Program-made: the position numbers and the translations under genes | Part shown: piece after piece, positions 8,531 through 34,703 of the stretch | Position numbering within the stretch: the first letter of the stretch is position 1 | Layout of the letters: every line of letters begins with the position of its first letter | Notes under the pieces: generated by a model | What the model saw: only the letters and a program-made list of their open reading frames with translations | Told to the model about the DNA's origin: nothing | Database searches by the model: none | DNA from: Natronosporangium hydrolyticum | GTDB taxonomy: Bacteria > Actinomycetota > Actinomycetes > Mycobacteriales > Micromonosporaceae | Length of the DNA: 64,000 nucleotides | Direction of reading: 5' to 3' | Assembly: GCF_016925615.1 (NCBI RefSeq) | Contig: NZ_CP070499.1 | Location: 496,001 to 560,000 of the forward strand

Positions 8531-8536
8531 CCGGCG

Positions 8537-14369: not shown

Positions 14370-16949
14370 ATGACGATGATGTCCGTCCGCTCCGTTTTGC
14401 GTGCGCCAAAGTGGCGGCGCCCCTTCCGGGTCGAACGGATCCACCTTCTGCGTTATATCGGCCCGATTAGGCAGGAAAGCGCCCTCCTGCCGGCTCGCGG
14501 CTTACTGGTTCAGGTCGAGGCGAAGAGAGGCCGACGGACCCTCGAAGGGGTTGGCGAGTCGGTCACCTCGGCGTCGCAGTCGCGGCAGGCTTGGGAGTCG
14601 CTCAGAAAGCATGCCAGTGAGCTAGTGGGTGCTGGGATCCCAGGGCACCTCGAAACGGACAATCCACTCGGTGGACTCGTCGGGTGGTCGCCTGTGGGTG
14701 CCACTACCAAGGGTTATAGGCGGGCAGCAAAGCTAGCCCTGGAAGGTGCGCTGCTCGACGTTGTCGCACAAATGAACGGGCTGTCGGAAGCTGATTCTAG
14801 CCGGACTATCAATGAACCAGGCGTTGCTCGAAACTTCTATCCGCTTCCGTCGGAGCTGCCGGGGAATTTGCCCGTAGGCCAAGCGCCGGCCGCGCCTGGA
14901 GGCGATGATTGGGCTTACTTCATCCGCTCGAGCGGCGATATTCAGGTCGACCTGGCGTGGATCAGTGACCTTACATTCCGGTTCGAAGATTCGCTCTCGA
15001 ACCGGCCCCTTTGGTTGGCATGCCCGCAGGTATGGGACAGTCGAATGGCTGGGACCATTGTTCGTGAACTGGCCCGTTTCGTGCAAGCAATCCGACCAGC
15101 GGCGCGTATCTATCTTGAGGGTCTGCTGCGGCCGCAGTTGCGGGATGAGCTGCCGGCGCTGCAGCGACTGGCGAACCAGGAGCTTGAGGGTGCGGGGGAG
15201 ATATCCGTCGTCCTTGGGAGCGAGGCGGAGTCATTGGAGGCCGTTGGCCAAGTCCTGGCCGATGGGCCACTTGGCGGACTGTCGCTCGACCTCAGGCGGT
15301 GGGGGACGCTCACCGGGATTCGGGCGGCCGCTTCGTTGATGAAGAACGCGAACCCCGAAGCGATGGTGGTGGTGACGGCTGGGCAGGGCGGTGATGTAAC
15401 GTCCCGAATGGCGCATCGCCTAGTCGAGGCAACACTGGATATCGATAGATTTCACCTGGATGCGGTAGGTTGGCCACGTCTCGTTGCCGCTGTCTCTGGC
15501 GACGCTCCCGGTCTGTCAACGCGGCAGTCGCTCGACCTTGAGAGACTCTCTGGGGTGGTGGACCGTTACTGTGTCCTACCCGAGGCCGATGGCGCCAACG
15601 AACCGGTGGCTGGGGATGGCCCCAACTCATATGACAGCCGCGGTTTCGACGGAGCATGGGAGTTGGATAGCCCGTTGTTGCTGGAGGCGGCGGCGCTGCG
15701 TCAGGGGTTGACGACGACGCATTTCTCCGATATGCGCACAAAGCGGTTGTCCAGTAGGACTTTCTTGGCCGAGCACCCAGAGACAGGGATCGCTGCGGGG
15801 TTCTCCGGAGCGGAGTCAACACTTACCAGCGTGGCTGCGGCGGCGGTCGCGAACCGTAAAGGTATAGCCAGGCAGATCCTCGCCTCTGAAGGGCTGCCGG
15901 TGGCTGACGGTTGCTACTTCTCTCCCGATCGACTGCAGGATGCCTACCGCTGGGGGCTGGAGTTGGGCTTCCCCTTGGTTGTGAAACCTGCGGGTGGTAG
16001 CAAGGGAGCTGCCGTTAGCACCAATATAAGGTCGTCGACCGAGCTTTCCGAGGCGCTCGATCGCGTGGCGGCGTCTCGCTACGCCCCGAGCGGCGCTGTG
16101 GTTGAGCGTTTTGTAAAGGGCGGAGATTATCGGATTCTGGCTACGCCAGACAGCGTTCTTTCAGTGATCAGGCGGGAACCGGCGGCGGTCGTGGGCGACG
16201 GTCACCGGAACGTGTCGGAGTTAATTCTGGCGGCGAACGCTGCGCGGCAACTCAACCCCAATCTGTGCAAGCTATTGATTCAGTTGGACGAAACATCTGA
16301 CTGGGCGCTGACCGAGCAAGGCCTCGACCGCCATTCGGTCCCAGCACGAGGGCGACGAGTGTGGCTTCGGAGCGTCGCGAACCTAAGCCAGGGTGGGGAC
16401 AGCTACGAGGTGTTCGACTCGGTGCATCAGTCGATCCTCGACCTCGCTACCCGGGCAGTTGCGGCAGTACCCGGACTCCCACACGCAGGGCTCGATATGA
16501 TTATCGAGGATCACCAGCTACCAGTGACTGCGCAGCAGGTGGCCATCATAGAGCTGAACTCCAACCCGATGCTTCCGATGCACCATTTCCCGAGCTTCGG
16601 TCACCCTAGGTCCGTATCCGCGGAACTAGTGCGGCGCGCTATGGGCTGGAGCCAGGTAGATATCGACCGGGTAGGTGATCTCACGGCGCATTTGGCCGTT
16701 TCGGGTCACGTGCAAGGAGTAGGGTTCCGTCGATGGTTTGCTAGGGCTGCCGGCGCTCTCGGAGTGACTGGTTGGGTTCGCAACGAAGATTCCGGGGATG
16801 TCACGGCGCTTCTTTCCGGAGATCCATTGCGAGTGACCTTGCTGGTAAGGATGGCGACCGCCGGGCCGTCGAAGGCTGATGTGATGCAGGTGGTGGCCCG
16901 ACCGACCGAGTCGAGCCCTACGTCCAGTTTCGAGGTCCTTGATGGATAG
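14370..16949 (+). CDS. Ligase module A, large subunit: enolase-like - ATP-grasp - acylphosphatase fusion
   Basis: An 859-aa multidomain protein. Residues ~15-420 resemble the enolase superfamily (N-cap plus barrel), beginning FRVERIHLLRYIGP, but barrel metal ligands are mostly lost: PLWLACPQVWD stands where a DxN strand is expected and GLSLDLRRWGTLTG where the catalytic Lys strand lies; only IYLEGLL keeps its acid. Residues ~430-750 form a cyanophycin-synthetase-like ATP-grasp: GFPLVVKPAGGSKGAAVS (~532), VIRREPAAVVGDG, NLSQGGDSYEV and AIIELNSNPMLPMHHFP (~726). Residues ~770-850 are an acylphosphatase domain with intact SGHVQGVGFRRW and GWVRNEDSGDV. TTA codon at 16221-16223. It overlaps the next gene by 8 nt. 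Likely an amide-forming ligase of unknown substrate. Confidence 0.75.
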   Translation: MTMMSVRSVLRAPKWRRPFRVERIHLLRYIGPIRQESALLPARGLLVQVEAKRGRRTLEGVGESVTSASQSRQAWESLRKHASELVGAGIPGHLETDNPLGGLVGWSPVGATTKGYRRAAKLALEGALLDVVAQMNGLSEADSSRTINEPGVARNFYPLPSELPGNLPVGQAPAAPGGDDWAYFIRSSGDIQVDLAWISDLTFRFEDSLSNRPLWLACPQVWDSRMAGTIVRELARFVQAIRPAARIYLEGLLRPQLRDELPALQRLANQELEGAGEISVVLGSEAESLEAVGQVLADGPLGGLSLDLRRWGTLTGIRAAASLMKNANPEAMVVVTAGQGGDVTSRMAHRLVEATLDIDRFHLDAVGWPRLVAAVSGDAPGLSTRQSLDLERLSGVVDRYCVLPEADGANEPVAGDGPNSYDSRGFDGAWELDSPLLLEAAALRQGLTTTHFSDMRTKRLSSRTFLAEHPETGIAAGFSGAESTLTSVAAAAVANRKGIARQILASEGLPVADGCYFSPDRLQDAYRWGLELGFPLVVKPAGGSKGAAVSTNIRSSTELSEALDRVAASRYAPSGAVVERFVKGGDYRILATPDSVLSVIRREPAAVVGDGHRNVSELILAANAARQLNPNLCKLLIQLDETSDWALTEQGLDRHSVPARGRRVWLRSVANLSQGGDSYEVFDSVHQSILDLATRAVAAVPGLPHAGLDMIIEDHQLPVTAQQVAIIELNSNPMLPMHHFPSFGHPRSVSAELVRRAMGWSQVDIDRVGDLTAHLAVSGHVQGVGFRRWFARAAGALGVTGWVRNEDSGDVTALLSGDPLRVTLLVRMATAGPSKADVMQVVARPTESSPTSSFEVLDG

Positions 16950-17745
16950 TGGTGTCTCGGTGCCCGCAGTTACCCGGATAGCAGATATGATGCCCGATCT
17001 GCATTCGCTGTTTCCTGTGAAGGACGAAGCCGGTACTGCGGAGTCGGCGATCCTCGAGGAGGTGGCGAAGCATCGAGGCTGCGAGGTGCGTCGCTACGCT
17101 GGTGACCTGCTCGAGTGTCGACGGGGCAACCGAAGGATGCTGTTCCGGGGCCTGGTTGGGTCGGCGTCTGCTCGTGTGTCTCATCTCTTAGCTGCTAATC
17201 CGGCGGCGGTGCGGAGGTTGCTTGCCGAACGCTCGTTGCCAGTAGTAGACACGCGGTTGGTCTCGTGGGGAGATGCTCGCTACCGAGAACACGCTGAAGC
17301 CATCGGCTACCCGTTGGTCGTGCGAATTCCCGGCGAGGCCGGTGTGCTGCCTGTCAAGGGAGCCGAGGAGCTTGGTCTTGTCTGGGGACACATCGCCGAC
17401 CTGCCCCGCAGGCGCCACACACACATCCTGTTGGAGGCTCGAGCAATCGACGATGCCAGTATCGATATCGCTGTCGTCAATGGCGAGGTAGTGGCGACCT
17501 CGCCACGGTTGTCAAGGCATTCGAGCGACCTAGCAGCGGCGGTACGGTCCCTTGCGACATCTACAGTAGCGACAGTTCCTGGGGTCACCTACGCCTCGGT
17601 CAGGACAGTGGTGGCGGAGCCTTCATCAGGAAGGGAAGTGCTAAGGGTGGAGTGGATCGATCCCGCCTTCGCTGCTTGGCGGCGTGAGGGCTCTGCCGAA
17701 GTGGCATTGATCGCCGAGGCGATATTGTTCTCGGAACTCGGGTAG
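16942..17745 (+). CDS. Ligase module A, small ATP-grasp-like subunit
   Basis: A 267-aa protein translated from ATG 16942 inside the end of the large-subunit gene (TTG 16939 is possible). It looks like a reduced ATP-grasp protein: CEVRRYAGDLLECRRGNRR, MLFRGLVGSASARVS, RRLLAERSLPVVDTRLVSW, YPLVVRIPGEAGVLPVKGAE (a lysine-poor version of the nucleotide loop) and VPGVTYASVRTVV. The same order of motifs occurs in the 167-aa protein at 20443, in the 390-aa protein at 28936 and in the C-terminus of the 1458-aa fusion. The missing glycine-rich loop suggests a non-catalytic partner. TTA codon at 17188-17190. Confidence 0.65.
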   Translation: MDSGVSVPAVTRIADMMPDLHSLFPVKDEAGTAESAILEEVAKHRGCEVRRYAGDLLECRRGNRRMLFRGLVGSASARVSHLLAANPAAVRRLLAERSLPVVDTRLVSWGDARYREHAEAIGYPLVVRIPGEAGVLPVKGAEELGLVWGHIADLPRRRHTHILLEARAIDDASIDIAVVNGEVVATSPRLSRHSSDLAAAVRSLATSTVATVPGVTYASVRTVVAEPSSGREVLRVEWIDPAFAAWRREGSAEVALIAEAILFSELG

Positions 17746-17888
17746 TGCGTTAGGACCGATGGCCGCTAGTCGCCGTTAAGCCTGCTACCCGAGCGCTTAC
17801 GGTGTCTCCGGTCCTGATCCGGAAGGTTCACTCTTTCGGGAACGGTGCGACACTCCTTCGGTTGCCGTAGCTGCTTGAGCCAGCTGGC

Positions 17889-17894
17889 TAGTAT
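17889..17894 (+). promoter_or_regulatory. Putative -10 hexamer TAGTAT, leaderless start
   Basis: TAGTAT ends 6 nt before GTG 17901 and no Shine-Dalgarno sequence is present. No clear -35. It would make module B an independent transcription unit. Confidence 0.5.
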
Positions 17895-17900
17895 CCCGCG

Positions 17901-20450
17901 GTGACCCGAGGTGTGGCAACAGCGACTCTGCGTGCGGAGCGAGTGCGGCTGATCAAGTACCTTGCACCGGGCCGGGGTCTGGCACGGCCCCAGGGCTTCG
18001 TGGTGCAGATCGAGGGGGTTGCTGCGCGGGAGCGGGTCGACGGCTTCGGCGAGGTTGTCGTGAGCAGAGACCATGCCGCGCCGACCATGCGCGAGTTGCG
18101 GATGCGGGCCGAAGCGCTCGTGGGGTCCGAATTTCCAGCTCTGGATGATCCGCGTCGTGCGTTGCGAAAATGCCGAGGTTGGGAACCCGTCGGCGGGTTA
18201 GGTCGCGGGCCGCGGCAGTCGGCGAAGCTGGCGTTCGAGATGGCGCTCCTCGATGCGCTCCTAAAGGTCGGTGAGTCGGCAACGAAGGGTGCCTGGCTGC
18301 CCGGCCAGAAGCATCTGCCGCACCAACGGTATGCCGTGCCGGCCGGGCCGCCGGAATTACCGGCCGACACGCTCTCGGATGCGCTGCGGAAGGACCCTGG
18401 AACGTCGTGGGCGCTGCGGCTGCGGCTGTCCGGCGACGATGAGCGTGACCTTTCCTGGGTGAGGCAGGTGACCGCAATAGAGCGAGAGCTGGGCCGGAAA
18501 CGACCGCTCTGGTTGGTAGGAGGCGGGCGGAGGGACAACGCTGGGGCACGGTTTGTACGTATGCTCTCTTCGTTCGTCACCGACGACGACGTCGACCTTC
18601 TGTGGGAAGAACCGCTTGCACGAGCCAGCGAGTCGTCGTTCGCGCGGCTCCGGCAACGCACCCCGCTGGCTCGACTGTCTGGCCGTTCCCGGTTGGGCAA
18701 GCTGCAGCGGTTGGCCGGCGACTCGGTCACCATCGTCGCGAGCCGGTCCGCTACCTCCACATGGCAGGCGGCGGCGCTCGCCCGCGAGGTCGGAGGGCTC
18801 TGCCTCTCGTTGCACCAGTTCCATTCGATTGTGGGACTTCGTGCGGCGGCGCGGGCGGCCAGGCTGGCCAACCCGGACCTGCGGCTGATGCTCGCTGGGG
18901 AACGCGGAAGCCGCATCACCGACTCGGCGTTGGCAGCGCTCGCTTCGGCAACGACGGAGATAGATCGGTATGTGCCCGAGGTGCGTGCCGGCGCCTGGCC
19001 GATGCTAGCGAGCGGCGTTAGCACCGGCGGGTTCGTTTCTCAGCTGGACCTGGCTGAGTTGGCGACCGTCGCCATCGAGCTGGCCGAGGTGCCGGCGCCG
19101 ATACTTCGGCCGGCTACCGAGCCGCCGAACCGGTTCCCTAGCTATCCACTTGCCGGAGCTGCGCTCGCGTTGCGGTCGATGCTGTTGGAGACCGAGGCGC
19201 TGCGGGTGGGTCTGCACACTCGCCGGGTGGCGCCCAACCACTTCTTGATGAGGCATCCCGATGTCGGCGCCGTCAGCGGGTTCTGCGACTCCGAGTTGAG
19301 CTTGACCAGCCACGCCGTTTCGGCGAGCGCCGCGGACAAGGGCATCACTCGCGGGTTACTGCAGACGGCCGGACTGCCGGTGCCGACCGGCATGACCTTC
19401 CCGGCGGGCGGCGCGGCCCAGGCGTACGAGGCGGCGTTGCGGCTGGGATTCCCGCTGGTGGTGAAGCCGGCGGGGGGCTCCAAGGGGACGGCGGTCACGG
19501 TCGACATCACCACCGAGCCGCAGCTGCGCGCGGCGCTGACCGAGGTCGAGGAATCGAAGTATGCGGAGACCGGCATCGTGGTCGAGCGGTACGTCACCGG
19601 CGACGACTACCGGATTCTGGCGACCCGCGACGAGGTCCTGTCGGTGATCCGCCGGGAGCCGGCCTCGGTGGTGGGCGACGGTCGGCGTACCGTCGCGGAG
19701 CTGGTGTTGGCCGCGAACGTGGTCCGGCGCCAGAACCCGCATTTGGCGAAGCGGCTGATCGTCCTGGACGGGCGAGTGGACGACCAGTTGGCGCGCCAGT
19801 CGCTCACCCGTGACGCGGTGCCGGCCGCCGGCAAGCGGGTGCGGTTGCGCGCTGAGGGCAACCTCAGCCTGGGCGGCGACAGCCGGGAAGTGCTCGACGA
19901 GCTCCACCCCACGGTCGCGGCGCTGGCGACGGCGGCGGTGGCGGCGATCCCCGGGCTGCCCTATGCCGGGTTGGACGTGCTCCTGGAAGACCACCGGCGC
20001 CCGCTCGGGGAGCAGCAGGCCAGCATCCTGGAGGTGAACTCCCGGCCGGTCCAGTCGATGCACCATTTCCCGATGTATGGCCCACCTCGCAACGTGTCGG
20101 CCCGGCTGGTGAGCGACGCGGTCCGCGCCATGGGTGTGGTCCCCGGCGAGCCGGCCGAGCGCCTCACCGTGGCGGCCGAGATCTCGGCCCGGGCCGGTGG
20201 GGCGGGCTACCGGCACTGGCTCGGTGAGCTCGCGACGCAGCTCGGTGTCGCGGGGTCGGTGCGCGCCGACGGTGACGGGCATCGACTGCTCGCGCACGGT
20301 CCGGCGTCACGGGTGGGCCTGCTGCTGCGGATGGCCTTCCAGGGCAATGCCGGCTCGGAGATCGTAGAGACCGTGGCCCAACCGGTGACGACGGTTCCGC
20401 CCACCGGGTTCCGGGTGGAGCGGAGATCCGGAAGGGGAGCGGATGGCTAG
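17901..20450 (+). CDS. Ligase module B, large subunit: enolase-like - ATP-grasp - acylphosphatase-like fusion
   Basis: An 849-aa paralogue of the module A large subunit. The enolase-like part (~1-400) begins LRAERVRLIKYLAPGRGLAR and is degenerate: PLWLVGGGRRDNAG and GLCLSLHQFHSIVG replace ligand strands, with DLLWEEPLA keeping an acidic position. The ATP-grasp part (~415-730) is well preserved: GFPLVVKPAGGSKGTAVT (~515), VIRREPASVVGDGRRT, NLSLGGDSREV and SILEVNSRPVQSMHHFP (~707). The C-terminal acylphosphatase-like domain keeps GAGYRHW but has VRADGDG instead of the VRN asparagine, so it is probably inactive. In-frame TTA codons at 18198, 18357 and 19356. It overlaps the next gene by 8 nt. 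Confidence 0.75.
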   Translation: MTRGVATATLRAERVRLIKYLAPGRGLARPQGFVVQIEGVAARERVDGFGEVVVSRDHAAPTMRELRMRAEALVGSEFPALDDPRRALRKCRGWEPVGGLGRGPRQSAKLAFEMALLDALLKVGESATKGAWLPGQKHLPHQRYAVPAGPPELPADTLSDALRKDPGTSWALRLRLSGDDERDLSWVRQVTAIERELGRKRPLWLVGGGRRDNAGARFVRMLSSFVTDDDVDLLWEEPLARASESSFARLRQRTPLARLSGRSRLGKLQRLAGDSVTIVASRSATSTWQAAALAREVGGLCLSLHQFHSIVGLRAAARAARLANPDLRLMLAGERGSRITDSALAALASATTEIDRYVPEVRAGAWPMLASGVSTGGFVSQLDLAELATVAIELAEVPAPILRPATEPPNRFPSYPLAGAALALRSMLLETEALRVGLHTRRVAPNHFLMRHPDVGAVSGFCDSELSLTSHAVSASAADKGITRGLLQTAGLPVPTGMTFPAGGAAQAYEAALRLGFPLVVKPAGGSKGTAVTVDITTEPQLRAALTEVEESKYAETGIVVERYVTGDDYRILATRDEVLSVIRREPASVVGDGRRTVAELVLAANVVRRQNPHLAKRLIVLDGRVDDQLARQSLTRDAVPAAGKRVRLRAEGNLSLGGDSREVLDELHPTVAALATAAVAAIPGLPYAGLDVLLEDHRRPLGEQQASILEVNSRPVQSMHHFPMYGPPRNVSARLVSDAVRAMGVVPGEPAERLTVAAEISARAGGAGYRHWLGELATQLGVAGSVRADGDGHRLLAHGPASRVGLLLRMAFQGNAGSEIVETVAQPVTTVPPTGFRVERRSGRGADG

Positions 20451-20946
20451 CCCGGCGTCGCAGTTGTTGGTCGACGCCGCGCAAGCGCGGGGCTTGCCGG
20501 TGCGGCGACTCTCGTCGGAGGTGGTGCTCTGTGGTGCACCGCCGCGGCAGATGCTCTTCCATGGTCTGGTGGGCGCCGGCTCTGGCCGGTCGGCCCATGT
20601 GCTCTGCGCCGACGCCGAGGTGCTGCGGCGCCAGCTGGCCCGGGCGGATCTCGCGGTCTGGTGCGATGAGGTGGACGACACCGGCGCCGCCCCGATCGAC
20701 GTTGCGGTGGTCGGTGCCCGGCCGATCGTGGCCTCGGTCGATTCTCCGGCTGCGGCGAGCGAACTGGCGGTGGCGGCGCTGGCGGCGGTTCCGGACACCC
20801 GCTACGCCAGCGTACGGCTGCGGGAGGTCGCGGGCGAGGTCAAGATCGAGACGGTGGACCCGGCGCTCCGGTACTGGGCGACGGCGAGTGCCGATTCGGC
20901 GTGCCGGGTGGCGGCGGCCATCGTCGCGTGGGAGTTCGGTGGGTAG
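20443..20946 (+). CDS. Ligase module B, small ATP-grasp-like subunit
   Basis: A 167-aa short homologue of the module A small subunit: LPVRRLSSEVVLCGAPPRQ, MLFHGLVGAGSGRSAH, LRRQLARADLAVW and VPDTRYASVRLREV align with it, while the ~80-residue segment holding the nucleotide-binding strand is missing. It is therefore very unlikely to bind ATP and may be structural or regulatory for the large subunit. The 8-nt overlap with the large-subunit gene implies coupled translation. The 148 bases downstream hold only the palindrome at 21030. Confidence 0.6.
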   Translation: MASPASQLLVDAAQARGLPVRRLSSEVVLCGAPPRQMLFHGLVGAGSGRSAHVLCADAEVLRRQLARADLAVWCDEVDDTGAAPIDVAVVGARPIVASVDSPAAASELAVAALAAVPDTRYASVRLREVAGEVKIETVDPALRYWATASADSACRVAAAIVAWEFGG

Positions 20947-21029
20947 CGGCTAGCTGGCGGCACGCCGGCGCAACGGGCGCTCCTGGGCGGGGCTGCCTCC
21001 GACCCACCGGGATCGGAGCGGACAAACTT

Positions 21030-21043
21030 CGCGAAGCTTCGCG
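21030..21043. promoter_or_regulatory. 14-bp perfect palindrome, possible operator
   Basis: CGCGAAGCTTCGCG is its own reverse complement and overlaps the 10-bp palindrome CTTCGCGAAG at 21028-21037. TATGTT at 21045-21050, immediately downstream, could be a -10 hexamer, so the palindrome would sit in the spacer of the promoter for the gene at 21095. A repressor site is inferred. Confidence 0.4.
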
Positions 21044-21094
21044 CTATGTTCGCAGTAGCGGTGCCGACCTCACCGCCCCAACCTGGGGGTGCCT

Positions 21095-21787
21095 ATGTCG
21101 AGCAGGCTGTGTGTGCTCTGTACCGTCTACCGTCCCCGTGCCCAGCCGCGGTTGCCGGAGCGGCCGCCAGTCTGTGATGGCGACCGGTCGCTCCTGGACC
21201 GGCACCTCGCCGAGTTGCCTGACCTGCACCGGCGGCTGGCGGTGGGCGGCGCCGGCCAGGTGCGGGCGCGATCGCAGCAGCCACGCGTCTCCGGGAGCCG
21301 GCCATGGTCGGCGCCGGCGTCCCTGGACCTCATCGACCTCTCGCTACCGGCCCGTCCCGCCGCGCGGCGGCTGCTCGACCGCGGCGCCCTCGTCGACCCG
21401 GACCAGGTCGGTCACCTTTCGGTCGCCACGATCCTGGACACCTGGGTACGCGACTGGCGGGCGAGGCCGTTCGCCGGCTTCCGCCCGCCGACGGCCACGG
21501 TGGATGCGCTGGTTGGCTGGTTGCGACGATGGCTCGACGGCGCTTGCGACGAGCATCCCCGGATCGGGAGGTTCGCGACGGAGATCCGCGAGCTGCGTGG
21601 GGCGCTGCGGCGGCTCCTGCGGGACACCGACCGGTCGGGCAGGGCCATCGAGCACCTCGGCGCCAGCTGCCCTCGCTGTGACCTCCGAGGGGTGCTGATG
21701 TGGGACATGGACGATGTCTACATCCAATGCGGCGGGTGTGGCGCCCTCTATACCGACGCCGAGCTGACCAACGAGCCGGCCGATTGA
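21095..21787 (+). CDS. Unknown protein with C-terminal zinc-ribbon, phage-like context
   Basis: A 230-aa protein with two Cys pairs at the N-terminus (RLCVLC) and a C-terminal ribbon CPRCDLRGVL ... YIQCGGCGALYTDAEL, suggesting zinc binding. The middle is Arg/Leu-rich and helical. No enzymatic motif is visible. ATG 21095 follows GGGGG; GTG 21089 is an alternative. Proteins of this look are found in actinobacterial prophage-like or integrative regions next to HTH genes, which matches the next genes. The function is unknown; nucleic-acid binding is possible. Confidence 0.6.
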   Translation: MSSRLCVLCTVYRPRAQPRLPERPPVCDGDRSLLDRHLAELPDLHRRLAVGGAGQVRARSQQPRVSGSRPWSAPASLDLIDLSLPARPAARRLLDRGALVDPDQVGHLSVATILDTWVRDWRARPFAGFRPPTATVDALVGWLRRWLDGACDEHPRIGRFATEIRELRGALRRLLRDTDRSGRAIEHLGASCPRCDLRGVLMWDMDDVYIQCGGCGALYTDAELTNEPAD

Positions 21788-21804
21788 TTCCCTCCCACGG
21801 GTGA

Positions 21805-21834
21805 TTGTGAGCGCTGCTCGGGGATGGGTACAGT
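21805..21834 (+). promoter_or_regulatory. Candidate promoter TTGTGA-N18-TACAGT
   Basis: TTGTGA (21805-21810) and TACAGT (21829-21834) each match the sigma-70-type consensus at four of six positions with 18-nt spacing. It precedes the small HTH gene at 21928 and probably drives it and the lysis-like genes. Confidence 0.35.
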
Positions 21835-21927
21835 GGTCGTACTCCATCTGATGGCGGAGATGTGCCCGATGGAGCAGTCGATCGCACTGCCTTAAGACGA
21901 GTCCGTCGTGTCTGGGGGTGGTGGACG

Positions 21928-22170
21928 ATGGCGGGATCTCTCGACATGGACGCGCTCGTTCCGGCGTGGTTCGCCTGTCGGCTGCTCGGAATTCCAAAGC
22001 AGACTTTTCGGTCCTGGGTCAGCTCGGGCAAGTTGACGCCGGTCGCCGACGCCGACGACGGCCATCCCCTCTACCGCTACGGCGATGTCCTCGAGGTGGA
22101 GCGGGCGACCCGACAAAGCCGGAAATCCTCGCGTAACCCGCACCGCGGGGCGGAGCCCAACCACCCTTAG
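21928..22170 (+). CDS. Small MerR-like helix-turn-helix protein
   Basis: An 80-aa protein whose segment VPAWFACRLLGIPKQTFRSW (residues ~11-30) followed by VSSGKLTPVADADDG and PLYRYGDVLEVE matches a winged-helix MerR/excisionase-type DNA-binding domain. ATG 21928 was chosen because it begins just before the domain; upstream in-frame residues have no family character. In phage-like cassettes such proteins act as excisionases or regulators; no integrase is present here, so regulation of the neighbouring lysis-like genes is more likely. Confidence 0.65.
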   Translation: MAGSLDMDALVPAWFACRLLGIPKQTFRSWVSSGKLTPVADADDGHPLYRYGDVLEVERATRQSRKSSRNPHRGAEPNHP

Positions 22171-22279
22171 TCGTGGCCAGCCCGCCGTGCCGGGCGGCTG
22201 CGGGATCTCGGCTATCACCAGTGCGCTTCGGCCGCCAGCAGGGCGGTGTAGCTTCCCGTCGAACGTATGGAGGTGCGTT

Positions 22280-23999: not shown

Positions 24000-24028
24000 G
24001 GGCAGCACCGCCCCGGGGGTCTGCGCGC

Positions 24029-24535
24029 TCAGGCGACGAGTGCGCAGACCCCCCAGCTCTCGGTTTCGCCCATGGCCGTCATCCCGGGCCGGGCGCCACC
24101 AGTACCGAAGCTTTGGGCGCCCGTCGGGCAGACGGCCTCCCATCCCTCGATGCCCAGGGTCGATGACGCCACCCGGACGGCGTGGGGGAGCGCGTCGGTG
24201 CAGGTGCCGTAGAGGTTCAGCTGCCAGTCGGTCGGCCCCCTGCCGCAGATCGCGGACACCCACAGCTGCCTGTTCGGCGGCACGGTGAATCCGCCTCCGC
24301 CGGTGGGGGTGGTGCGAGCGGTCACCGCGAAGCCACCCGTCACCAGCCGCATCCCGGTCAACATCGCTCGGGGTTGGTCGGGGTTGCTGTACGCCGCGCC
24401 GCCGCCGTCGATGACGGTGGTCCCGGGCGGACAGTGGGCGGTCAGGGGCAGGACGCTGTTCGAGGCGTTGTTGGCCGAGGCTTGAACCAGCACCAGGTCA
24501 GGGTTGCCGCGGCCGCGCCACCAGCTGTCGGTCAA
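24029..24535 (-). CDS. Cys-containing beta-rich protein of unknown function
   Basis: A 168-aa protein, last gene of the leftward ligase operon, starting at a TTG whose last two bases overlap the TGA stop of the 1458-aa gene (TTGA). Four spaced cysteines occur in HCPPGTTVIDGGGAAYS, AICGRGPTDW, GTCTDAL and EAVCPTGAQSFGTGG, with a fifth near the C-terminal end (GVCALVA). The CPxGTxVxxGGGA motif is common in secreted actinobacterial proteins of unknown function, but no signal peptide is visible here. Perhaps the start is further upstream or export is by another route. Confidence 0.55.
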   Translation of the reverse strand: MTDSWWRGRGNPDLVLVQASANNASNSVLPLTAHCPPGTTVIDGGGAAYSNPDQPRAMLTGMRLVTGGFAVTARTTPTGGGGFTVPPNRQLWVSAICGRGPTDWQLNLYGTCTDALPHAVRVASSTLGIEGWEAVCPTGAQSFGTGGARPGMTAMGETESWGVCALVA

Positions 24536-27500
24536 GACCGGTCGGTGCCTGTCACCCGGTCGGCCGACGTGCGTTGCCAGGGCATTCGAAGCCGTCGAGG
24601 CTGTGGCCGCCGCCGTACGAAGCCGGCAGGCAGCACCGCGTCGAAGAACCCGGCGATGCTACCGGCGACCACCTGATCGTCGGGGGAGAAAGTCGGGGTG
24701 GTGGTCAGCCCTTCGACAGTGACGCGCTGCGCGTTCAAACCGCCTGCGGTTCGCACTGGCGCGAGCAGATCCACGGCGGCCCAACGCAGCTCCGGGATGG
24801 CCCGAACCGCTTGAGCCGCCGACCGCGCCAGTGATGGCACGACCTCGGGGGTGAGTAGGGCAGCGGCGGTGCCGGCGGGAAGCACGAATGCGTACGCTTC
24901 GCGGTCGGTGGCCAGGACCCTGACCCGGAGCCCTGGCCGCCGAGATTGAAGAAATCCAGCTTCGTCCGCCAAGCCATCCCAGGCCGCGTTGATCTCGTCC
25001 GGACCGGCGGAGGGAGCGAGAACCGTCCCTGCCCGCCATCCCGCCCCGCCCCGCGCTGGCAGCAACGCGACCGGGGTGTCAAACTGCGCCAATCGGGCGG
25101 ACAAGTCCACAACGGACGACACCGGCTGCCCCTTGGGAATCCGGATCTCTGCGAGGCGTAGTAGTCTCCGTAGCTGGCCGCGACGGTTGATGACCTGGGC
25201 CACGAGTGACAGGTCCGCAGTGCCCGCGCAGCCGAAGATGAGCTGGTCCTGATCGCCGGCGAGTCGTCGTAGGTCTGGCGCCAAGTCCTCGTACGCAACC
25301 TTGCCGGTGGTGAGGTAGTCCGAGAGCAGATCCTTGATCGTGACTGTGGCCGACGCATCTCTATGCGCGAAGGCGGTGGGGCTCATCGTCCCCGGCCGGC
25401 GGCCTGCCTTTCCAATGCCGTCTCCCACGGTTCGCTGCTCAGCACCGAAATCAGCGACCCGACCGCGGCGAAGTTGCCAGATCGATCGAGCGAGGTTGCG
25501 CGGCCTTCCGTACAGCGGATAGTGGAAGCCGCCAATGCCGGCATTGACGTTGATCTCAAGGACATAGACTTCTTCCCGGTCGCCATCCTGACCCGGCCGG
25601 AGAATCGCATCTACACCACCCCAATTCAAGCCAGGGACGGCCTTCACTGCGGCAACCGCGGTCTGCTTCAAAACTTCCGGTACCTCGTCGGAGTAGTCGA
25701 TGCTATCACCGCCTACTGAAAAGTTGGCGGCACCGCCCACGTAGACCTTGTCGTCCTTTCCCGGGATTGACGCCAAACTCAGTCCCGCCCTGCTCAGGAG
25801 GGTGTCGAGATTGTCGTTGACGCGTATCGGGCGGTTCTGTAGGTGGGGATTTCGGCGTCGCCGTTGATTCTTGGTATCGATCAGTTGGGCGATGGTGTGG
25901 ACACCGTCGCCGATCACATTCGGCGCATCACGACCGCAGACCGCCACGCACTCGTGGTTGGTGGCCACACACCGGAACTCGGTGCCGGCGACAAAGCGCT
26001 CGACAAGTACGCCACCCTCCGCGTCCGCCCGGTCGTAGGCCGCCCGCAGGTGGTCGATATCGGTGACGTTGACAGATACTCCGGCGCCCCGGTCGCCCAT
26101 GGCCGGTTTAACCACCACCGGGCCGTCCAAGGTCCGAAAGAGGTCCTCGGCGTCCGCCAGTGATTGTGCCACCCCACCCGGTGCGGTGCTGACTCCGGCA
26201 TCGTTCAGCAGCCGTTTGAGTATTCCCTTGTCGCGGACCACCTTCGTGGCGGGGACAGATTCGAGGCAGCGGTTCCCCTTGAATAGCAGCCGTTGCTCAC
26301 CGAGGCTGGCGACGAAGGTGTCGCTGGCCAACCAGTCGATGCTCGCACCATCGAGCTCGGCTTCCTTGGCGATCAGCAGCGACGGCAGGAGCCGTTGGTC
26401 AAGCATCCGCAGCAGTGCAGTCGACTCTGGATCGTCGTAGACGTTCTCCCCATTTGCGCCGGGATCTGTGGTGGGTGTGACCGCCGCCGTGGTGAAGGCG
26501 TAGCCGAGGTAGAACCCGTACTCGTCCCGACCTCGATGCGCCAGGCGCTGGAACGAGTGGTCGAGGTCGTGGCTGACCAACGCGGACCAGAGCGCCTCGA
26601 AGCTCGCCTCGTCGACTGGACTGGGTCGGTGGTTGGTGGCACGGTTGTCGCTGGTGATCGGGTACAGCCGCAGGTCGACCACCCAGCCACCGGCCCGTAC
26701 TCCCGCATTCACCCGGGCGACCAGACCGTACGGGGGAGCATCGTGCTTATCGAATCGGCCGCCCCAGTTGAACTGGAAGTTCCCAAGCGAGTAGACCACG
26801 GCGTGCTGCCGGCCGAACGAACACTGCTGCAGCATGTGTGCACCGTGCCCGATGATGAGGTCGGCCCCCGCATCGACAAACGCGGCCGCGGCCCGTTGCT
26901 GAGCCTCGTTCACCCACTGATAGTTCCGGCCCCAGTGCGGAAAAACCACAATTAGCGAGCTGGGGTCGGTGCGGCGTAGCTCGGTGATCGCGGTCGCCAC
27001 ACGCTGGATCGCCATGCTGTGTACGCCCGGCTGCCGAGACCCGGCGTAGAACTGGTACTGGTCTCGCAGCTTGGCTTGGATCTGCATGGCGCCGATGACA
27101 TGGACCCGCCGCTCCACGCCGTCGAAGTCGAGCCGCAGCGTCAAGGGCTCGGCTGCTTCGGCCCCTGAGGCTCCGGCGCCGAAAGCCTGGATGCCTGCTG
27201 CCTCCAGTTGTTGCTTGGTCGCGAGGAGGTGCTCCGCGCCGTAATCCATGGTGTGGTTGTTGGCCAGGCTGACAGCGTCGACGCCCAGTCGGGTCAGACA
27301 GTCGATCGTCCGCTGCGGCGAATCCCACCCGAGATAGGGTTTGTCGCCCTCGAACGGGCTTACCGGATGGTCTGCCAGCACAGTCTCCAGATTGAGGATG
27401 AGCGCGTCGTGGTCAGCCACGAGCGGCTGGAGGTCGGCGACGAAGGACATCGGATTTTCGTCAAGCCGGTGCCGCAGGGAGCCGCCGGCCCGGTCTACGT

Positions 27501-28908
27501 AAACGTCGCCGAGGCTGGTGTCCCCGCCGAACACGAGGGTCTTGAAAGCCACTCCGGAGAGGTCCGGTAACTCGGATGCGCTGATCGGTTCGGGCTCCGG
27601 TCCATCGACCTGGGCCAGCGGGCCGGCAGCTGCCGTCGCAGCCTCGTAAGTCGCCTCGACATAGGGGGCGAGCTTGTCCCAGCGCAGCCGCGTGCCCAGC
27701 CCTGGCGTGGTCTGGCGGGCGATGATGTTGCTGTCCTTCGCATGGTACTTCGCCAGCGGCTCGGAGATCCGCTCCTGCACGTTCTGCGGCGGGACAGTGG
27801 TCAGGTAGTCCACCCGGGGCAGCGCCCGGGCGAGGCTGTGCAGGGCCCAAGCAGTGACGTCGCTGGTGCCGACCATCCCCCCGATGCAGACGTGGACCTC
27901 CGGGTCGGCGGCGACCGCCGCGTTCGCGAGGTCCAGGCTGGCCAGCAGCCCGCCTGCCTTCGGGGCCTTGATGTTGATCGCCCGGCAGCCGCCGAGCGCG
28001 TTCAGCCGGGTCAGGTCGTCCACGTCCCACATGCCCTCGTCCGGCATGACCCGAAGATCGAGCGGCTGGTCCGAGCCGAGCGCCTGGCAGCGTTCGTCGG
28101 CGACCCGCTGCAGCTGCGGGAGCTGGTCCACATCCCGTTTCGGAAGCATCCCCTCCACCACGATCGACGCCGGGAGCTCGCCGCGGCCCATCCGGTCGGC
28201 GATCTCGGTAAGCAGCCGGACCGCCCCGTCGTAGTCGAGCGCCTCGTTGATGTCGATCCAGATCGGCCGCTCCCGGCCGACCGAGCGGTTCGCCTCGGTC
28301 ACCACACCGAGCAGCGAGAGGTCGTACGCGATGTCGCCGGTGCCCTTGACCCGGGTCATCGGGAACCGGACCTGCTTGATGGTCTTTTCCTTCACCTGCG
28401 CCAGGTCGTTGCTGGAGGAGATGGTGGAGATGCTGATCCCGATGTCGTCGCGCTGCCGGCCGAGCAGGTCCGCGAGCTGTATCCCGAGGGCGTGGGAGAC
28501 CACATCCAGCAGCGCGGTCTCGATGCCTAGCAGCGTGCCGCGGAACGGTCGATCCCTGTCCTGCTCCTCCGCGTGGGCGACGGCGATCGGGTTCAGCTCG
28601 GCCATGGCGGACCGGACGCTCGCAACCGCCTCGGCCGGCCCATCGAAGCGGAGCCGGCGGCCCGCCAGCGCATCGGTCGCCGCGCAGAGGAACTGCCAAG
28701 CGGAGACCCGGTCCTTGCCGCCGTCCCCGGTCAGCGCGTGGCGGGGTTGGCACTCGCCGAGCCCTTCGAACGGCTGGCCGCTGCCTTCGGCACCCAGCAC
28801 CAGTAGGAAGTTGACCCCGGCAGTGGTGACCCCCCTGGCGGTGCCGTAGGCCCGCTTCAGCGGCATCTGGTAGCGGACCGCCCGCACCCGGGTAAGCGAA
28901 ATCTCCAC
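24532..28908 (-). CDS. Ligase module D: enolase (dipeptide-epimerase-like) - CapA - ATP-grasp - small-subunit-like fusion
   Basis: A 1458-aa protein. (1) Residues 1-430: enolase superfamily, apparently intact, with MTRVKGTGD, WIDINEALDYDG, SIVVEGMLPKRD, PDEGMWDV and INIKAPKAGG at the metal-ligand and Lys positions typical of Ala-Glu/dipeptide epimerases. (2) ~450-810: CapA/PGA_cap metallophosphatase-like domain with FGGDTSLGDVY, NLETVLADHP, LANNHTMDYGAEH, FPHWGRNYQW and IIGHGAHMLQ. (3) ~880-1130: CphA-like ATP-grasp with GPVVVKPAMGDRGAGVSV, NFSVGGDSIDYSDEV and YVLEINVNAGIGGFHYP. (4) ~1190-1458: degenerate small-subunit-like domain. GTG start at 28908 follows GGAGGGG. Known CapA proteins act in poly-gamma-glutamate synthesis or export, so a peptide polymer is the inferred product. 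Confidence 0.8.
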   Translation of the reverse strand: MEISLTRVRAVRYQMPLKRAYGTARGVTTAGVNFLLVLGAEGSGQPFEGLGECQPRHALTGDGGKDRVSAWQFLCAATDALAGRRLRFDGPAEAVASVRSAMAELNPIAVAHAEEQDRDRPFRGTLLGIETALLDVVSHALGIQLADLLGRQRDDIGISISTISSSNDLAQVKEKTIKQVRFPMTRVKGTGDIAYDLSLLGVVTEANRSVGRERPIWIDINEALDYDGAVRLLTEIADRMGRGELPASIVVEGMLPKRDVDQLPQLQRVADERCQALGSDQPLDLRVMPDEGMWDVDDLTRLNALGGCRAINIKAPKAGGLLASLDLANAAVAADPEVHVCIGGMVGTSDVTAWALHSLARALPRVDYLTTVPPQNVQERISEPLAKYHAKDSNIIARQTTPGLGTRLRWDKLAPYVEATYEAATAAAGPLAQVDGPEPEPISASELPDLSGVAFKTLVFGGDTSLGDVYVDRAGGSLRHRLDENPMSFVADLQPLVADHDALILNLETVLADHPVSPFEGDKPYLGWDSPQRTIDCLTRLGVDAVSLANNHTMDYGAEHLLATKQQLEAAGIQAFGAGASGAEAAEPLTLRLDFDGVERRVHVIGAMQIQAKLRDQYQFYAGSRQPGVHSMAIQRVATAITELRRTDPSSLIVVFPHWGRNYQWVNEAQQRAAAAFVDAGADLIIGHGAHMLQQCSFGRQHAVVYSLGNFQFNWGGRFDKHDAPPYGLVARVNAGVRAGGWVVDLRLYPITSDNRATNHRPSPVDEASFEALWSALVSHDLDHSFQRLAHRGRDEYGFYLGYAFTTAAVTPTTDPGANGENVYDDPESTALLRMLDQRLLPSLLIAKEAELDGASIDWLASDTFVASLGEQRLLFKGNRCLESVPATKVVRDKGILKRLLNDAGVSTAPGGVAQSLADAEDLFRTLDGPVVVKPAMGDRGAGVSVNVTDIDHLRAAYDRADAEGGVLVERFVAGTEFRCVATNHECVAVCGRDAPNVIGDGVHTIAQLIDTKNQRRRRNPHLQNRPIRVNDNLDTLLSRAGLSLASIPGKDDKVYVGGAANFSVGGDSIDYSDEVPEVLKQTAVAAVKAVPGLNWGGVDAILRPGQDGDREEVYVLEINVNAGIGGFHYPLYGRPRNLARSIWQLRRGRVADFGAEQRTVGDGIGKAGRRPGTMSPTAFAHRDASATVTIKDLLSDYLTTGKVAYEDLAPDLRRLAGDQDQLIFGCAGTADLSLVAQVINRRGQLRRLLRLAEIRIPKGQPVSSVVDLSARLAQFDTPVALLPARGGAGWRAGTVLAPSAGPDEINAAWDGLADEAGFLQSRRPGLRVRVLATDREAYAFVLPAGTAAALLTPEVVPSLARSAAQAVRAIPELRWAAVDLLAPVRTAGGLNAQRVTVEGLTTTPTFSPDDQVVAGSIAGFFDAVLPAGFVRRRPQPRRLRMPWQRTSADRVTGTDRS

Positions 28909-28935
28909 GGTGCCCCTCCCGCCGTACCGCGTGCG

Positions 28936-30108
28936 TCAGCTGTGGCGTACTTCGACGAGCCTGGCGCGTTGGCCGTCCAGTTGCCCATCGACCAGCAGCT
29001 CGAAAAGCATGGCCAACGCGTTGGGTGACCCCTGCAGTGTGCCCTCTGCGGTGCCTTCGATCCGATCGGCGACCGCCACCTGGCCGGCGAGACCATGCTC
29101 GGCGATCGCCGCGGTCAGCGCCGCGGCCACCCCGTCCGGGTCCGTGCAGCCTTCAATGTGCGCCGTCACCGACACCTCATCGCGCGGCGGCTGCTCGGTC
29201 TCGGCGGCGGCGCGCTGCAGCGACAGCAGCTCCTCGCCGAGGCGGTGGCCGAGTTCCGCCGAGGCGAGCGCTAGCACCGCGAGGTATGGCCGCTCCGAGA
29301 AGTCGACGATCCAAGCCTCCTGCTCGGCGACCGGGCGATGGTGATCGGCCACCACCATGCCGATGGTGGTAGTCGCCAGGCCCGGGATCGTGGTCGCCGC
29401 CTGGAGCGCGAGCTCGGCCAGGCTTGGGTGGAGCTCGTCGGTGACGTCCCGGACGCTGGTCGGCGCCGCGCTGTCGCCGATTCGGTGGACCGCGGCCCGG
29501 ACCTGGCCGGCGACTGTGACCAGGTGGAGGTAGTCGCCCTCGACGTGGCGTTCGACTAGGAACTGGTAGCCGGCCGGTGCAATCGACCGGCCGTCCTCCT
29601 CGTCCGGCTCCAGCAGCAGCGTCAACGCGTACGCGGTGCGGCTGAAGGTGGGGCGGTCCAGCTCCGGGGTGCGCAGGTAGTCGATCGCTGACTCCAGCTC
29701 GGCCACGTTCCGGATGCCGGCGGTCACCTCGGCCAGGTTCTCGCCGACCGCCGGCTTGACCGCCACCGGGTAGCCGATCTGCTCCGCGAAGGTCTTCGCC
29801 ACCGCCAGCTCCCGGCCGATGGCGAAGGTCGCCCCCGGGGGGACCGGCAGCCCGGCCCGGGCGAGCAGCTCCCGCCGCATGCGCTTGTCCTGCGCGTAGG
29901 TCACCGCCGACAGGGTGCTCTGCTGGGGGACACCGTGGACGAACGACAGCTCCCCCGGCTCGTCGGCGCGGGTGGCCACCAGCACCTGCCGCGGATAGAG
30001 CGTCACGTCAAAGCCGTACCGCAGCGCCGCGCGGTGGACTTCGTATCCGTCGTGGAGCTGGCGGGCGATCCGGCCCACTGGGCCGGCGGTGACGGAGTCA
30101 GCGGGCAT
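28936..30108 (-). CDS. Ligase module C, small ATP-grasp-like subunit with acylphosphatase-like tail
   Basis: A 390-aa protein with an ATP-grasp-like fold: MRRELLARAGLPVPPGATF, GYPVAVKPAVGENLAEVTAG (~110; the glycine-rich loop is altered), FLVERHVEGDYLHLVTVAG, and AWIVDFSERPYLAVLAL where active enzymes have an ExN metal site. The N-terminus (VHRAALRYGFDVTLYPRQ, FVHGVPQQST) matches the module A and B small subunits. The last ~90 residues (VSVTAHIEGCTDPDGVAA) look like an acylphosphatase without catalytic Arg/Asn. It overlaps the module C large subunit gene by 11 nt. Probably a non-catalytic partner. Confidence 0.65.
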   Translation of the reverse strand: MPADSVTAGPVGRIARQLHDGYEVHRAALRYGFDVTLYPRQVLVATRADEPGELSFVHGVPQQSTLSAVTYAQDKRMRRELLARAGLPVPPGATFAIGRELAVAKTFAEQIGYPVAVKPAVGENLAEVTAGIRNVAELESAIDYLRTPELDRPTFSRTAYALTLLLEPDEEDGRSIAPAGYQFLVERHVEGDYLHLVTVAGQVRAAVHRIGDSAAPTSVRDVTDELHPSLAELALQAATTIPGLATTTIGMVVADHHRPVAEQEAWIVDFSERPYLAVLALASAELGHRLGEELLSLQRAAAETEQPPRDEVSVTAHIEGCTDPDGVAAALTAAIAEHGLAGQVAVADRIEGTAEGTLQGSPNALAMLFELLVDGQLDGQRARLVEVRHS

Positions 30109-32110
30109 CCTGGCGCTCCTGCGGGTCGTGCTCGAGAATCTCGAAGTCGGTCACGGCGGGCGAGTTGATGTGGACCGTGTCGACCGAGGTGGGGCGCGCG
30201 CGCCGAGGGCCGAGCACAGTGGCCGCCGCCAGCGCGCTCGCCGGCACCGCGTCGCCCACCAGCACCGCCTCCACGGTCTGGGCGTCGATGTTGCGGACCC
30301 ACCCGGTGAGCCCGAAGGAGCGGGCGTGGCGCTGCAACCAGGTGCGGTAACCGACCCGGGTGACCCGCCCGCGGATGGTCAGTTTTAGCGCCAGCCGGTC
30401 CGCCGGCTTGTCGTGGGTGTTCAACCCGTAGTGCTCGACACACTGCGCGATGACGGTCCGCGCCACCTGGCGGGGCGCGCCGTAGAGGGGATACTCGCAG
30501 TTACCGATGGCGGCGTGGGCATTCAGCTCACAGATCCCGGCTCGCTGCTCCGCCAGATCTCTGGTGTGGTCCTCGATCAGGAAGTCGATGCCGCAGAACC
30601 ACAGCCCCGGCACGGCCTTGACGGCTCTGACGCAGGCCTCTTTGATGCTCGGGTGCAGCTCTTCGAGCACGTCGATGGAGTCGCCGCCCTGCGAGAGACT
30701 GCAGGAGTTGCTCAGCAGCACCCGCTGGCCCGGTGGCGGGACCGAGCAGAGGTCGAGGCCGACCCGTTCCAGCTGGAAGCGGGCGGCGTCGTCGTATTTG
30801 ATCGGCCGTCCCCACAGGTGCGGGTTGAGCCGGCGGGCGGCGTTTTTGTTGGCGACCAACTCGGCCACTGAGTGGACGCCGTCGCCCTCGACCGAGGCGG
30901 GCTCCCGCAGGATCGCGGCGATCACCTCGTCCCCGACCACCACGATCCGGTAGTCGCGGCCGGTGACGTGTTGTTCGACGATGAAGTCGTCTTTGCCCAG
31001 CCGGCTCTTGACGAGCTGGTCGAAGGCGATGTTGAGCTCTCGCTCGTCAGCGATGTTGGCGACCACGCCGATGCCGCGTACGCCCATCGCCGGTTTGACC
31101 ACGACCGGGTAGCCGATCCGCTCGGCGAACGCCCGGGCTGAGGCGAAGTCGCCGTTGGTGAAGGTGCGCCCCTTCGGCACCGGAACCCCGGCCCGCCGCA
31201 GCCGCATCCGGGTGGCTTCTTTGTGGGTGCACAACGCCAGTGATACCGCGCTGGAACGCGGTGAACGGCTCCATTTGAAGACCAGCGGCGGGTGCTCACC
31301 GTCGGTAGCGGTGAACGCACCCTTGGAGAATCGGGTGGTGCGCAGCCCGAGCGCCAGCGCCTCCCGCTCCAGCAGGTGCCCCTTAGTGCCGTTGGAACCC
31401 AGCGGCTTCAGGAATTGAACCTCGTCGTAGACAGTGGCGGGCCGGCCGTCATGGGAGGGCGCGACCGGTGCCGGGAATGCAACATAGTCGAGCACCCGTC
31501 GGAGCACCGTTTCGAAGATCTCCTCGCGACGGTCCGGGCTGCCAGGTGGCTGTGGCATCGCCTGGAGCACTCCGTGAGCCCGTTCGCCGAGCAGTGTGGC
31601 GGGTGGTCGCTCGATCGCTCGGGAGACCAGGTCAACCAGCGCCGCCTCCAGCCCGAGCAGGGTGCCGTGGAACGGGCGGGGGCGCCGCCAGCTGGTGGCG
31701 GCGTCGAACACGGCCCGCAGCGTGCGCTTCGCCAGCCGCTTCGCGACCGCCTTGGGGCGGCCGCTGCGGAACTGGGTCCGCCGCTGTTCGCGTGCCAGCT
31801 CTTCTGCCCGCTGCTGGTAGGTCTCGGCGAGGGTGCTCCACTCGGCCATCACCTCACGGACGGTGAGGGCCGCCTGCGCCGGATCGTCGACGGTCAGGCG
31901 TCGCTCTTCCAGCTGCTGCAGGCAGTCGCCCACTAGCTGCCACGACAGTGGCGCCTTATCGCGGGTGCGGGCACCCCGCGGGTGACAGTCACCGAGGCCT
32001 TCCAACTGGGTGCCGTCGCTGGTCTCGCCCCGCAGCTGAACCAGGAAGTTGTGGTCACGCCTCCGTCGGTACGACGTTGCGCGTACGCGGGTCAGCTGTA
32101 GCGTCACCAC
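30098..32110 (-). CDS. Ligase module C, large subunit: enolase N-cap remnant - ATP-grasp - acylphosphatase
   Basis: A 670-aa paralogue of the module A/B large subunits. The first ~70 residues (LQLTRVRATSYRR ... EGLGDCHPRGARTRD) and a later FHGTLLGLEAALVDLVSR correspond to the enolase N-terminal capping domain, but the barrel is deleted and replaced by a short linker. Residues ~240-540: ATP-grasp with GYPVVVKPAMGVRGIGVVAN (~333), FIVEQHVTGRDYRIVVVGD, SCSLSQGGDSIDVLEELHP and AGICELNAHAAIGNCEYP (~523). Residues ~572-650: acylphosphatase with RGRVTRVGYRTWLQ and GWVRNIDAQTV, keeping catalytic Arg and Asn. GTG start; 172 bases separate it from the racemase gene upstream on the same strand. Confidence 0.75.
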   Translation of the reverse strand: MVTLQLTRVRATSYRRRRDHNFLVQLRGETSDGTQLEGLGDCHPRGARTRDKAPLSWQLVGDCLQQLEERRLTVDDPAQAALTVREVMAEWSTLAETYQQRAEELAREQRRTQFRSGRPKAVAKRLAKRTLRAVFDAATSWRRPRPFHGTLLGLEAALVDLVSRAIERPPATLLGERAHGVLQAMPQPPGSPDRREEIFETVLRRVLDYVAFPAPVAPSHDGRPATVYDEVQFLKPLGSNGTKGHLLEREALALGLRTTRFSKGAFTATDGEHPPLVFKWSRSPRSSAVSLALCTHKEATRMRLRRAGVPVPKGRTFTNGDFASARAFAERIGYPVVVKPAMGVRGIGVVANIADERELNIAFDQLVKSRLGKDDFIVEQHVTGRDYRIVVVGDEVIAAILREPASVEGDGVHSVAELVANKNAARRLNPHLWGRPIKYDDAARFQLERVGLDLCSVPPPGQRVLLSNSCSLSQGGDSIDVLEELHPSIKEACVRAVKAVPGLWFCGIDFLIEDHTRDLAEQRAGICELNAHAAIGNCEYPLYGAPRQVARTVIAQCVEHYGLNTHDKPADRLALKLTIRGRVTRVGYRTWLQRHARSFGLTGWVRNIDAQTVEAVLVGDAVPASALAAATVLGPRRARPTSVDTVHINSPAVTDFEILEHDPQERQDAR

Positions 32111-34612: not shown

Positions 34613-34703
34613 TGACCCTCCCATGGTTCGCAGCGGCGTCTGCCGGGTGCCGACCAAGCGCTCAGGCCCCCGCGCTGCCGACGACACAGGCTAGCAGGAT
34701 GGC

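Follow-up and report, generated by a model that had tools for sequence, protein, structure and literature searches.

Paired ATP-grasp ligase modules with enolase, acylphosphatase and CapA domains in Natronosporangium hydrolyticum and other bacteria: a candidate system for a surface-polymer peptide

Described systems closest to the locus

Several described systems resemble a group of genes in Natronosporangium hydrolyticum, analysed here within a window of 64,000 nucleotides (positions 496,001 to 560,000 of contig NZ_CP070499.1) from a single-contig genome of 5.70 Mb. By both sequence and fold, the nearest known relatives of the ATP-grasp domains in these genes are the cyanophycin synthetases CphA1 and CphA2. 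The likeness includes a peptide polymer built by ligases, which is predicted here, and, in related clusters, Mur ligase partner domains. Unlike CphA1 and CphA2, the modules carry enolase, CapA and acylphosphatase domains and pair an active with an inactive ATP-grasp. The Mur family was absent from all window modules (Pfam). Against TIGR02068, a whole-length model with a cut-off of 850 bits, the window proteins scored 183-205 bits over the ATP-grasp stretch only, and the same model found no full cyanophycin synthetase in the genome.

Poly-gamma-glutamate synthesis (PgsB/CapB, PgsC/CapC and PgsA/CapA) resembles these genes in having a CapA domain and in D/L chemistry, which is predicted here, and related loci of Halomonas and Sulfitobacter combine CapA with Mur. 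The modules differ in that their ligase is mainly an ATP-grasp and that CapA forms one part of a larger multidomain protein. Teichuronopeptide is given a role in alkaliphily (PMC8153356). The likeness to the teichuronopeptide/TupA system of Bacillus halodurans lies in the predicted product, a sugar polymer of alkaliphiles that bears an acidic peptide, and in TupA-like ATP-grasp genes at five related loci; in the part of its literature available, however, that system is described without ligases carrying enolase, CapA or acylphosphatase domains. CapC/PgsC had 0 matches in the N. hydrolyticum genome, while the control matched in B. subtilis; TupA (PF14305) had no match either, but neither did its control. 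Thus, the poly-gamma-glutamate pathway itself appears to be missing, and the teichuronopeptide pathway may be.

The enolase domain of one module, D, shares two lysines and the metal ligands with dipeptide epimerases (YkfB and relatives) but, unlike them, sits in one protein with a ligase and CapA. In D-type enolases, Leu, Ile or Met occupies the position two residues beyond the Asp that aligns with residue 321 of 1jpm, so a different substrate end is likely. The CapA domain of D is related to MslH, a lasso-peptide epimerase of the CapA family, and keeps its metal-site residues, but no lasso-peptide genes were seen near D. HypF and other acylphosphatase-domain proteins join the acylphosphatase fold to an enzyme that handles activated acyl groups, whereas the fusion partners of the module acylphosphatase are peptide-type ligases, which belong to two unrelated folds. 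A literature search on the domain combination, with one amidoligase survey outside its reach, found no described system of this composition, in agreement with an earlier sequence-only reading of the window.

Domain composition of the four modules

Seven reading frames between 14370 and 32110, all confirmed to be open at the positions first given for them, are grouped as four modules, A-D (Table 1). Domains were checked with Pfam/NCBIfam, PDB sequence searches, domain-versus-domain BLAST, profile-profile comparison and, for two pieces, structure prediction. The claim that four versions of one architecture lie within about 18 kb was confirmed by Pfam/NCBIfam, PDB searches, BLAST and profiles.

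Table 1. Features of the modules and of neighbouring genes in the window
Feature	Position	Strand	Remarks
Three ATPgrasp_ST ORFs (PF14397, sugar-transfer-associated ATP-grasp)	8489..13206	+	8489-10144; 9490-11445 (overlapping frame); 11536-13206
Module A large subunit	14370..16949	+	859 aa
A large, pseudo-enolase part	14430-15536	+	
A large, CphA-like ATP-grasp	15669-16634	+	
A large, acylphosphatase	16674-16937	+	catalytic Arg and Asn
Module A small subunit, degenerate ATP-grasp	16939..17745	+	start TTG 16939 or ATG 16942
Module B large subunit	17901..20450	+	849 aa
B large, pseudo-enolase	about 17928-19022	+	
B large, ATP-grasp	19170-20114	+	
B large, partly degenerate acylphosphatase	20157-20417	+	Arg kept, Asn to Ala
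Module B small subunit	20443..20946	+	167 aa; BLAST 1e-11 to A small subunit
Module D, single fused protein	24532..28908	-	1458 aa
D, degenerate second ATP-grasp	24631-25209	-	
D, ATP-grasp	25474-26388	-	
D, CapA/MslH-type domain	26578-27537	-	
D, enolase	27673-28896	-	full catalytic set K-D-N-E-D-E-K
Module C small subunit (Cs)	28936..30108	-	390 aa; overlaps C stop by 11 nt
Cs, degenerate acylphosphatase fold	28942-29175	-	
Cs, degenerate ATP-grasp	29194-30069	-	
Module C large subunit	30098..32110	-	670 aa
C large, acylphosphatase	30137-30400	-	catalytic Arg and Asn
C large, ATP-grasp	30446-31387	-	
C large, enolase N-terminal part only	31469-32095	-	
Asp/Glu/hydantoin racemase family gene	32283..32978	-	
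TagH-like ABC ATPase and TagG-like ABC-2 permease	33000..34687	-	permease 33800-34687

Cyanophycin synthetase models matched the large proteins of A, B, C and D at 2e-58 to 4e-67, in the ATP-grasp domain only, and the four domains are paralogues, 35-55% identical in domain-versus-domain BLAST. They are CphA-like ATP-grasps with the residues for ATP and Mg, every checked residue being present in all four large window proteins. Among 118 large ATP-grasp domains from all loci, each key nucleotide or metal residue is kept in 111-115, with the exception of one less conserved Arg.

Each module had been said to include a small ATP-grasp-like partner. The relationship stands in a more specific form: the partner is a duplicate, now degenerate, of the ATP-grasp in the large protein itself. 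The alignment of Cs to C spans 292 residues (3e-25), and Cs is missing a portion of the middle. The small-subunit ORF of A overlaps the stop codon of its large gene, and that of B is a more strongly reduced relative. D has its partner not as a separate protein but as a fused C-terminal domain, which matched D's own ATP-grasp by BLAST (2e-7) and by profile (98.8%, 5e-17). The metal Asn is replaced by Ser in 30 of 36 C-type partners, and fused AG2 domains have lost the Lys, the Glu and the metal pair. For the AF2 model of Cs (pLDDT 88.8), the nearest solved structures were cyanophycin synthetases (Foldseek, VIA; Z 21.3, rmsd 3.3, 251 aligned); the VIA comparison was confined to the ATP-grasp region of Cs and, in D, to the first such domain. 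Foldseek with the two ATP-grasps of D modelled as a tandem (pLDDT 85.2) also gave carbamoyl-phosphate synthetase chains, aligned over both. The small-subunit profile SAG_A may include some full ATP-grasp domains, and its match at 7e-44 was set aside. A further profile match, at 47752-49545, was rejected as a small-subunit relative and is a biotin carboxylase.

The enolase domain of D matched at 4.6e-14 (Pfam/NCBIfam), its best PDB relatives by profile being of the dipeptide epimerase type (7e-18 to 1e-15), and it contains both catalytic lysines and the three metal ligands. Alone, the N-termini of A and B gave weak enolase matches, but by profile they matched D-type enolases (99.4%, 4e-21), and they are related to each other (BLAST, 1e-29). 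The window C protein keeps about 200 N-terminal enolase residues, 34% identical to D (BLAST, 2e-18), and the enolase barrel is missing from it; C orthologues retain a full-length pseudo-enolase. The prediction that the N-terminal parts are enolase-like was thus borne out. The catalytic set is kept in D, its counterparts and a few enolase-ATP-grasp-acylphosphatase or enolase-Mur proteins. It is absent from A (R-A-P-E-G-S-D), from B, where it is degenerate in the alignment, and from C-type orthologues with a full enolase domain. Epimerisation of a peptide, which had been suggested for the enolase parts in general, is therefore plausible for D but not for A, B and C, which are pseudo-enzymes; judged by these residues, only the enolase of D could plausibly epimerise.

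The CapA domain of D matched at 3.2e-49, and 21-22 of 23 such domains retain the residues of the metal site. Its match to MslH (NCBIfam 1.2e-14; PDB 8gq9 6.5e-11) covers only part of the protein, and its 53.6 bits lie below the MslH equivalog cut-off of 700 bits (NF038314). MslH and the CapA of poly-gamma-glutamate synthesis have both been implicated in peptide epimerisation (PMC9266682).

Acylphosphatase was matched by Pfam in A (1.2e-17) and C (5.5e-13), both with the fold and the catalytic Arg and Asn, and in B, without the Asn, at 1.6e-4, just below the curated cut-off. The last 80 residues of Cs match acylphosphatase by profile (97.3%, 2.4e-11), and in the AF2 model the C-terminus follows the acylphosphatase order beta-alpha-beta-beta-alpha-beta; on this profile comparison and predicted secondary-structure order, the end of Cs is acylphosphatase-like. 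To our knowledge, acylphosphatase has long been without a convincing general role. Across the family it occurs in fusions with ATP-grasp and with Mur ligase; these ligase folds are unrelated, but, by established chemistry, both proceed through an acyl-phosphate intermediate. Because it accompanies two unrelated acyl-phosphate ligases, we infer a role in editing or clearing, and the domain plausibly edits acyl-phosphate intermediates. The catalytic Arg is kept in 56 of 69 acylphosphatase domains from all loci and the Asn in 50; with the Asn lost in 19, editing cannot be universal.

Pairing, distribution and domain shuffling

Among 395 genomes of the class, searches for C and for its partner matched an identical set of 8, which come from 4 of 138 genera. 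A profile scan of one genome per species added 29 true loci in Actinomycetota, Halomonadaceae and Sulfitobacter. The actinobacterial hosts are Phytoactinopolyspora, Haloechinothrix, Ruania, Nesterenkonia, Garicola, Brevibacterium and Glutamicibacter, with metagenome-assembled genomes assigned as propionibacterial, Actinophytocola and Nitriliruptoraceae; the proteobacterial hosts are Halomonas, Vreelandella and Sulfitobacter. Most of these taxa we take, from their names, to be halophiles or alkaliphiles, and the genomes are phylogenetically clustered. Phytoactinopolyspora and Haloechinothrix are named in a hypersaline-lake survey (PMC7351256). As the scan used a C-type alignment, other paralogue types are under-sampled; when all large-subunit types were aligned together, conservation was too low throughout to support a contig scan.

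The expected co-occurrence of large and small subunits was found for the C type, not only in the same genomes but also side by side: 33 of 36 partner genes directly adjoin their large gene and share its orientation, in most cases with an overlap of 4, 8 or 11 bases. Of the remaining three, that at L088 is fused to its large gene in a single 1068-aa ORF without stops, that at L010 lies at a contig edge and that at L047 is a damaged copy.

In the ATP-grasp tree, for which the ordinary cyanophycin-synthetase-like proteins of five same-family genomes with no other type (L057-L061) served as outgroup, window C lies among Phytoactinopolyspora orthologues, with up to 83% identity. Transfer of C is suggested by this placement, as the two hosts belong to different families. 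Halomonadaceae and Sulfitobacter copies group together, and the C-type proteins at L083, L085, L086 and L087 are very close between Gammaproteobacteria and an Alphaproteobacterium, which suggests recent transfer. A and B are sisters, with their nearest kin in another genome of their own family. The family is conserved and mobile, C being its conserved core and A and B lineage-specific duplicates.

The domains also recur in other orders. In Ruania, an intact-looking enolase is fused to Mur, with or without acylphosphatase (L070:13681-17061 and L069:18188-21394). ATP-grasp-CapA-Mur occurs in Halomonas, and CapA-ATP-grasp-AG2 at several loci. A 1695-aa ORF of Phytoactinopolyspora halotolerans (L046:12186-17273), with no internal stops, joins ATP-grasp-acylphosphatase to CapA-ATP-grasp-degenerate ATP-grasp, that is, a C-like to a CapA module. 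A-D would belong to one modular system as sister ligases forming amide (peptide) bonds.

Genomic neighbourhood and proposed product

The adjacent Asp/Glu racemase and TagGH exporter on which the sequence-only reading drew are present (Table 1) and recur elsewhere. An Asp/Glu racemase lies near C-type modules at 14 loci, and a TagGH-type ABC exporter is found at 8, the window and seven others. ATPgrasp_ST occurs at 29 of 33 C-type loci, rhamnose synthesis genes lie beside Halomonas loci, and the Sulfitobacter neighbourhood has two Mur ligases and CapA. The window also encodes Stealth, two CDP-glycerol-transferase-like proteins, IspD-type cytidylyltransferases and LicD. A protein of about 725 aa without a clear Pfam match (L043 2601-4949 and relatives) is found at 15 loci, often just upstream of ATPgrasp_ST, and is a candidate new glycosyltransferase. 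SMC genes near several Nesterenkonia loci were discounted; they look like housekeeping neighbours.

Within the window, a DUF3541 protein (13225-14343; PF12060, 2e-74) is encoded directly upstream of module A. GC content is 61-62% at 12000-18000 and about 67-72% around it, which suggests a different history for this gene and module A. Between B and D, 20950-24535 holds an HTH gene and a PG_binding_1 protein (22378-23670), and is possibly an inserted phage- or lysin-like piece.

Because of the recurrent neighbours and the window genes, we favour an exported sugar(-phosphate) polymer bearing amino acids or a peptide. The surface-polymer role put forward earlier agrees with gene context across three classes, but a second lineage of enolase-ATP-grasp-acylphosphatase modules, in Phytoactinopolyspora (L051-L054; genomes G349, G358, G169 and G375), does not lie beside surface-polymer genes. 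Next to it are genes for GH1, GH31, a LacI regulator and an ABC sugar transporter. This context hints at a role involving sugar metabolism or a modified sugar, so not every family member need serve a surface polymer.

From the domains, residues, pairing, fusions and context described above, ligation, heterodimer formation, editing, epimerisation and a product can be predicted as follows. The CphA-like ATP-grasp, with its catalytic residues and by analogy with its family, would convert a carboxylate to an acyl phosphate and couple it to an amine. Its non-catalytic twin would complete a heterodimer and probably hold or select substrate, and the acylphosphatase would edit by hydrolysing mis-made or stalled acyl phosphates. 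In D, the intact enolase and CapA/MslH-type domains may invert the stereocentre of the newly added residue, with D-Asp or D-Glu supplied by the neighbouring racemase. The peptide would most likely be attached to a polymer built by the products of the Stealth, CDP-glycerol-transferase-like and ATPgrasp_ST genes, with TagGH as its exporter, and the product could act like teichuronopeptide or poly-gamma-glutamate, lowering surface pH or holding cations. We consider the chances evenly balanced that the modules form a non-ribosomal amide-ligase system placing an acidic peptide with D-amino acids on a sugar(-phosphate) polymer that is exported; the product, its amino-acid specificity and its attachment are read from gene content.

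Alternatively, the product might be a soluble osmolyte of peptide nature, a compatible solute accumulated by halophiles, for instance a dipeptide resembling N-acetylglutaminylglutamine amide. Most hosts are halophilic by name, asparagine-synthase-like genes lie near 12 loci, and the ATP-grasp of C matches N-acetylglutaminylglutamine synthetase (TIGR03103) at 3.5e-39. However, the large window proteins score 109-135 bits against that model (C, 134.8), far below the cut-off of 569, and C matches it more weakly than cyanophycin synthetase. Exporters, ATPgrasp_ST, TupA-like and sugar genes in the neighbourhoods, CapA and Mur ligase fusions suggestive of polymers, and four modules where a dipeptide would need fewer all make an osmolyte unlikely.

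A secondary metabolite for secretion, for example a siderophore or a peptide antibiotic made by ligases, would fit the patchy, horizontally moved distribution with lineage-specific duplication. Clusters for such compounds often contain ligases, epimerases and an exporter, and the CapA homologue MslH works in lasso-peptide synthesis. Yet the genes examined included none recognised as belonging to NRPS, PKS or RiPP pathways, sugar-phosphate polymer genes surround the C pair, and this pair is a strongly conserved core (<=83% identity between families), unusual for diversifying metabolites. We regard such a product as improbable.

It is also doubtful that only D and the C pair function, with A, B and their partners as decaying duplicates. 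The catalytic residues missing from both pseudo-enolases, the lost acylphosphatase Asn of B and its shortened partner would accord with decay, but A and B keep every checked ATP-grasp residue, long open frames and overlapping partners. Pseudo-enolases and dead ATP-grasp partners also persist in distant genera, which argues for selection. An intracellular, cyanophycin-like nitrogen-storage polymer is very improbable despite the ATP-grasp's nearest family, given the exporter and sugar-transfer context, window proteins without a Mur domain and a TIGR02068 cut-off reached nowhere in the genome.

Returning to the exported polymer, a fuller version is put forward only tentatively: a new ligase assembly line in which epimerase, editing and ligase domains are shuffled around heterodimers of active and dead ATP-grasps, with acylphosphatase proofreading, to make a D-amino-acid-containing surface polymer of haloalkaliphiles. 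If this is true, a live ligase paired with a dead copy of itself would be a route to peptide polymers that needs neither ribosomes nor NRPS, and acylphosphatase would gain a specific function as an editing domain. It would also put names to genes for an acidic surface layer of soda-lake and salt-lake bacteria, and adaptation to alkaline brine would become genetically testable in Halomonas as well as in actinobacteria.
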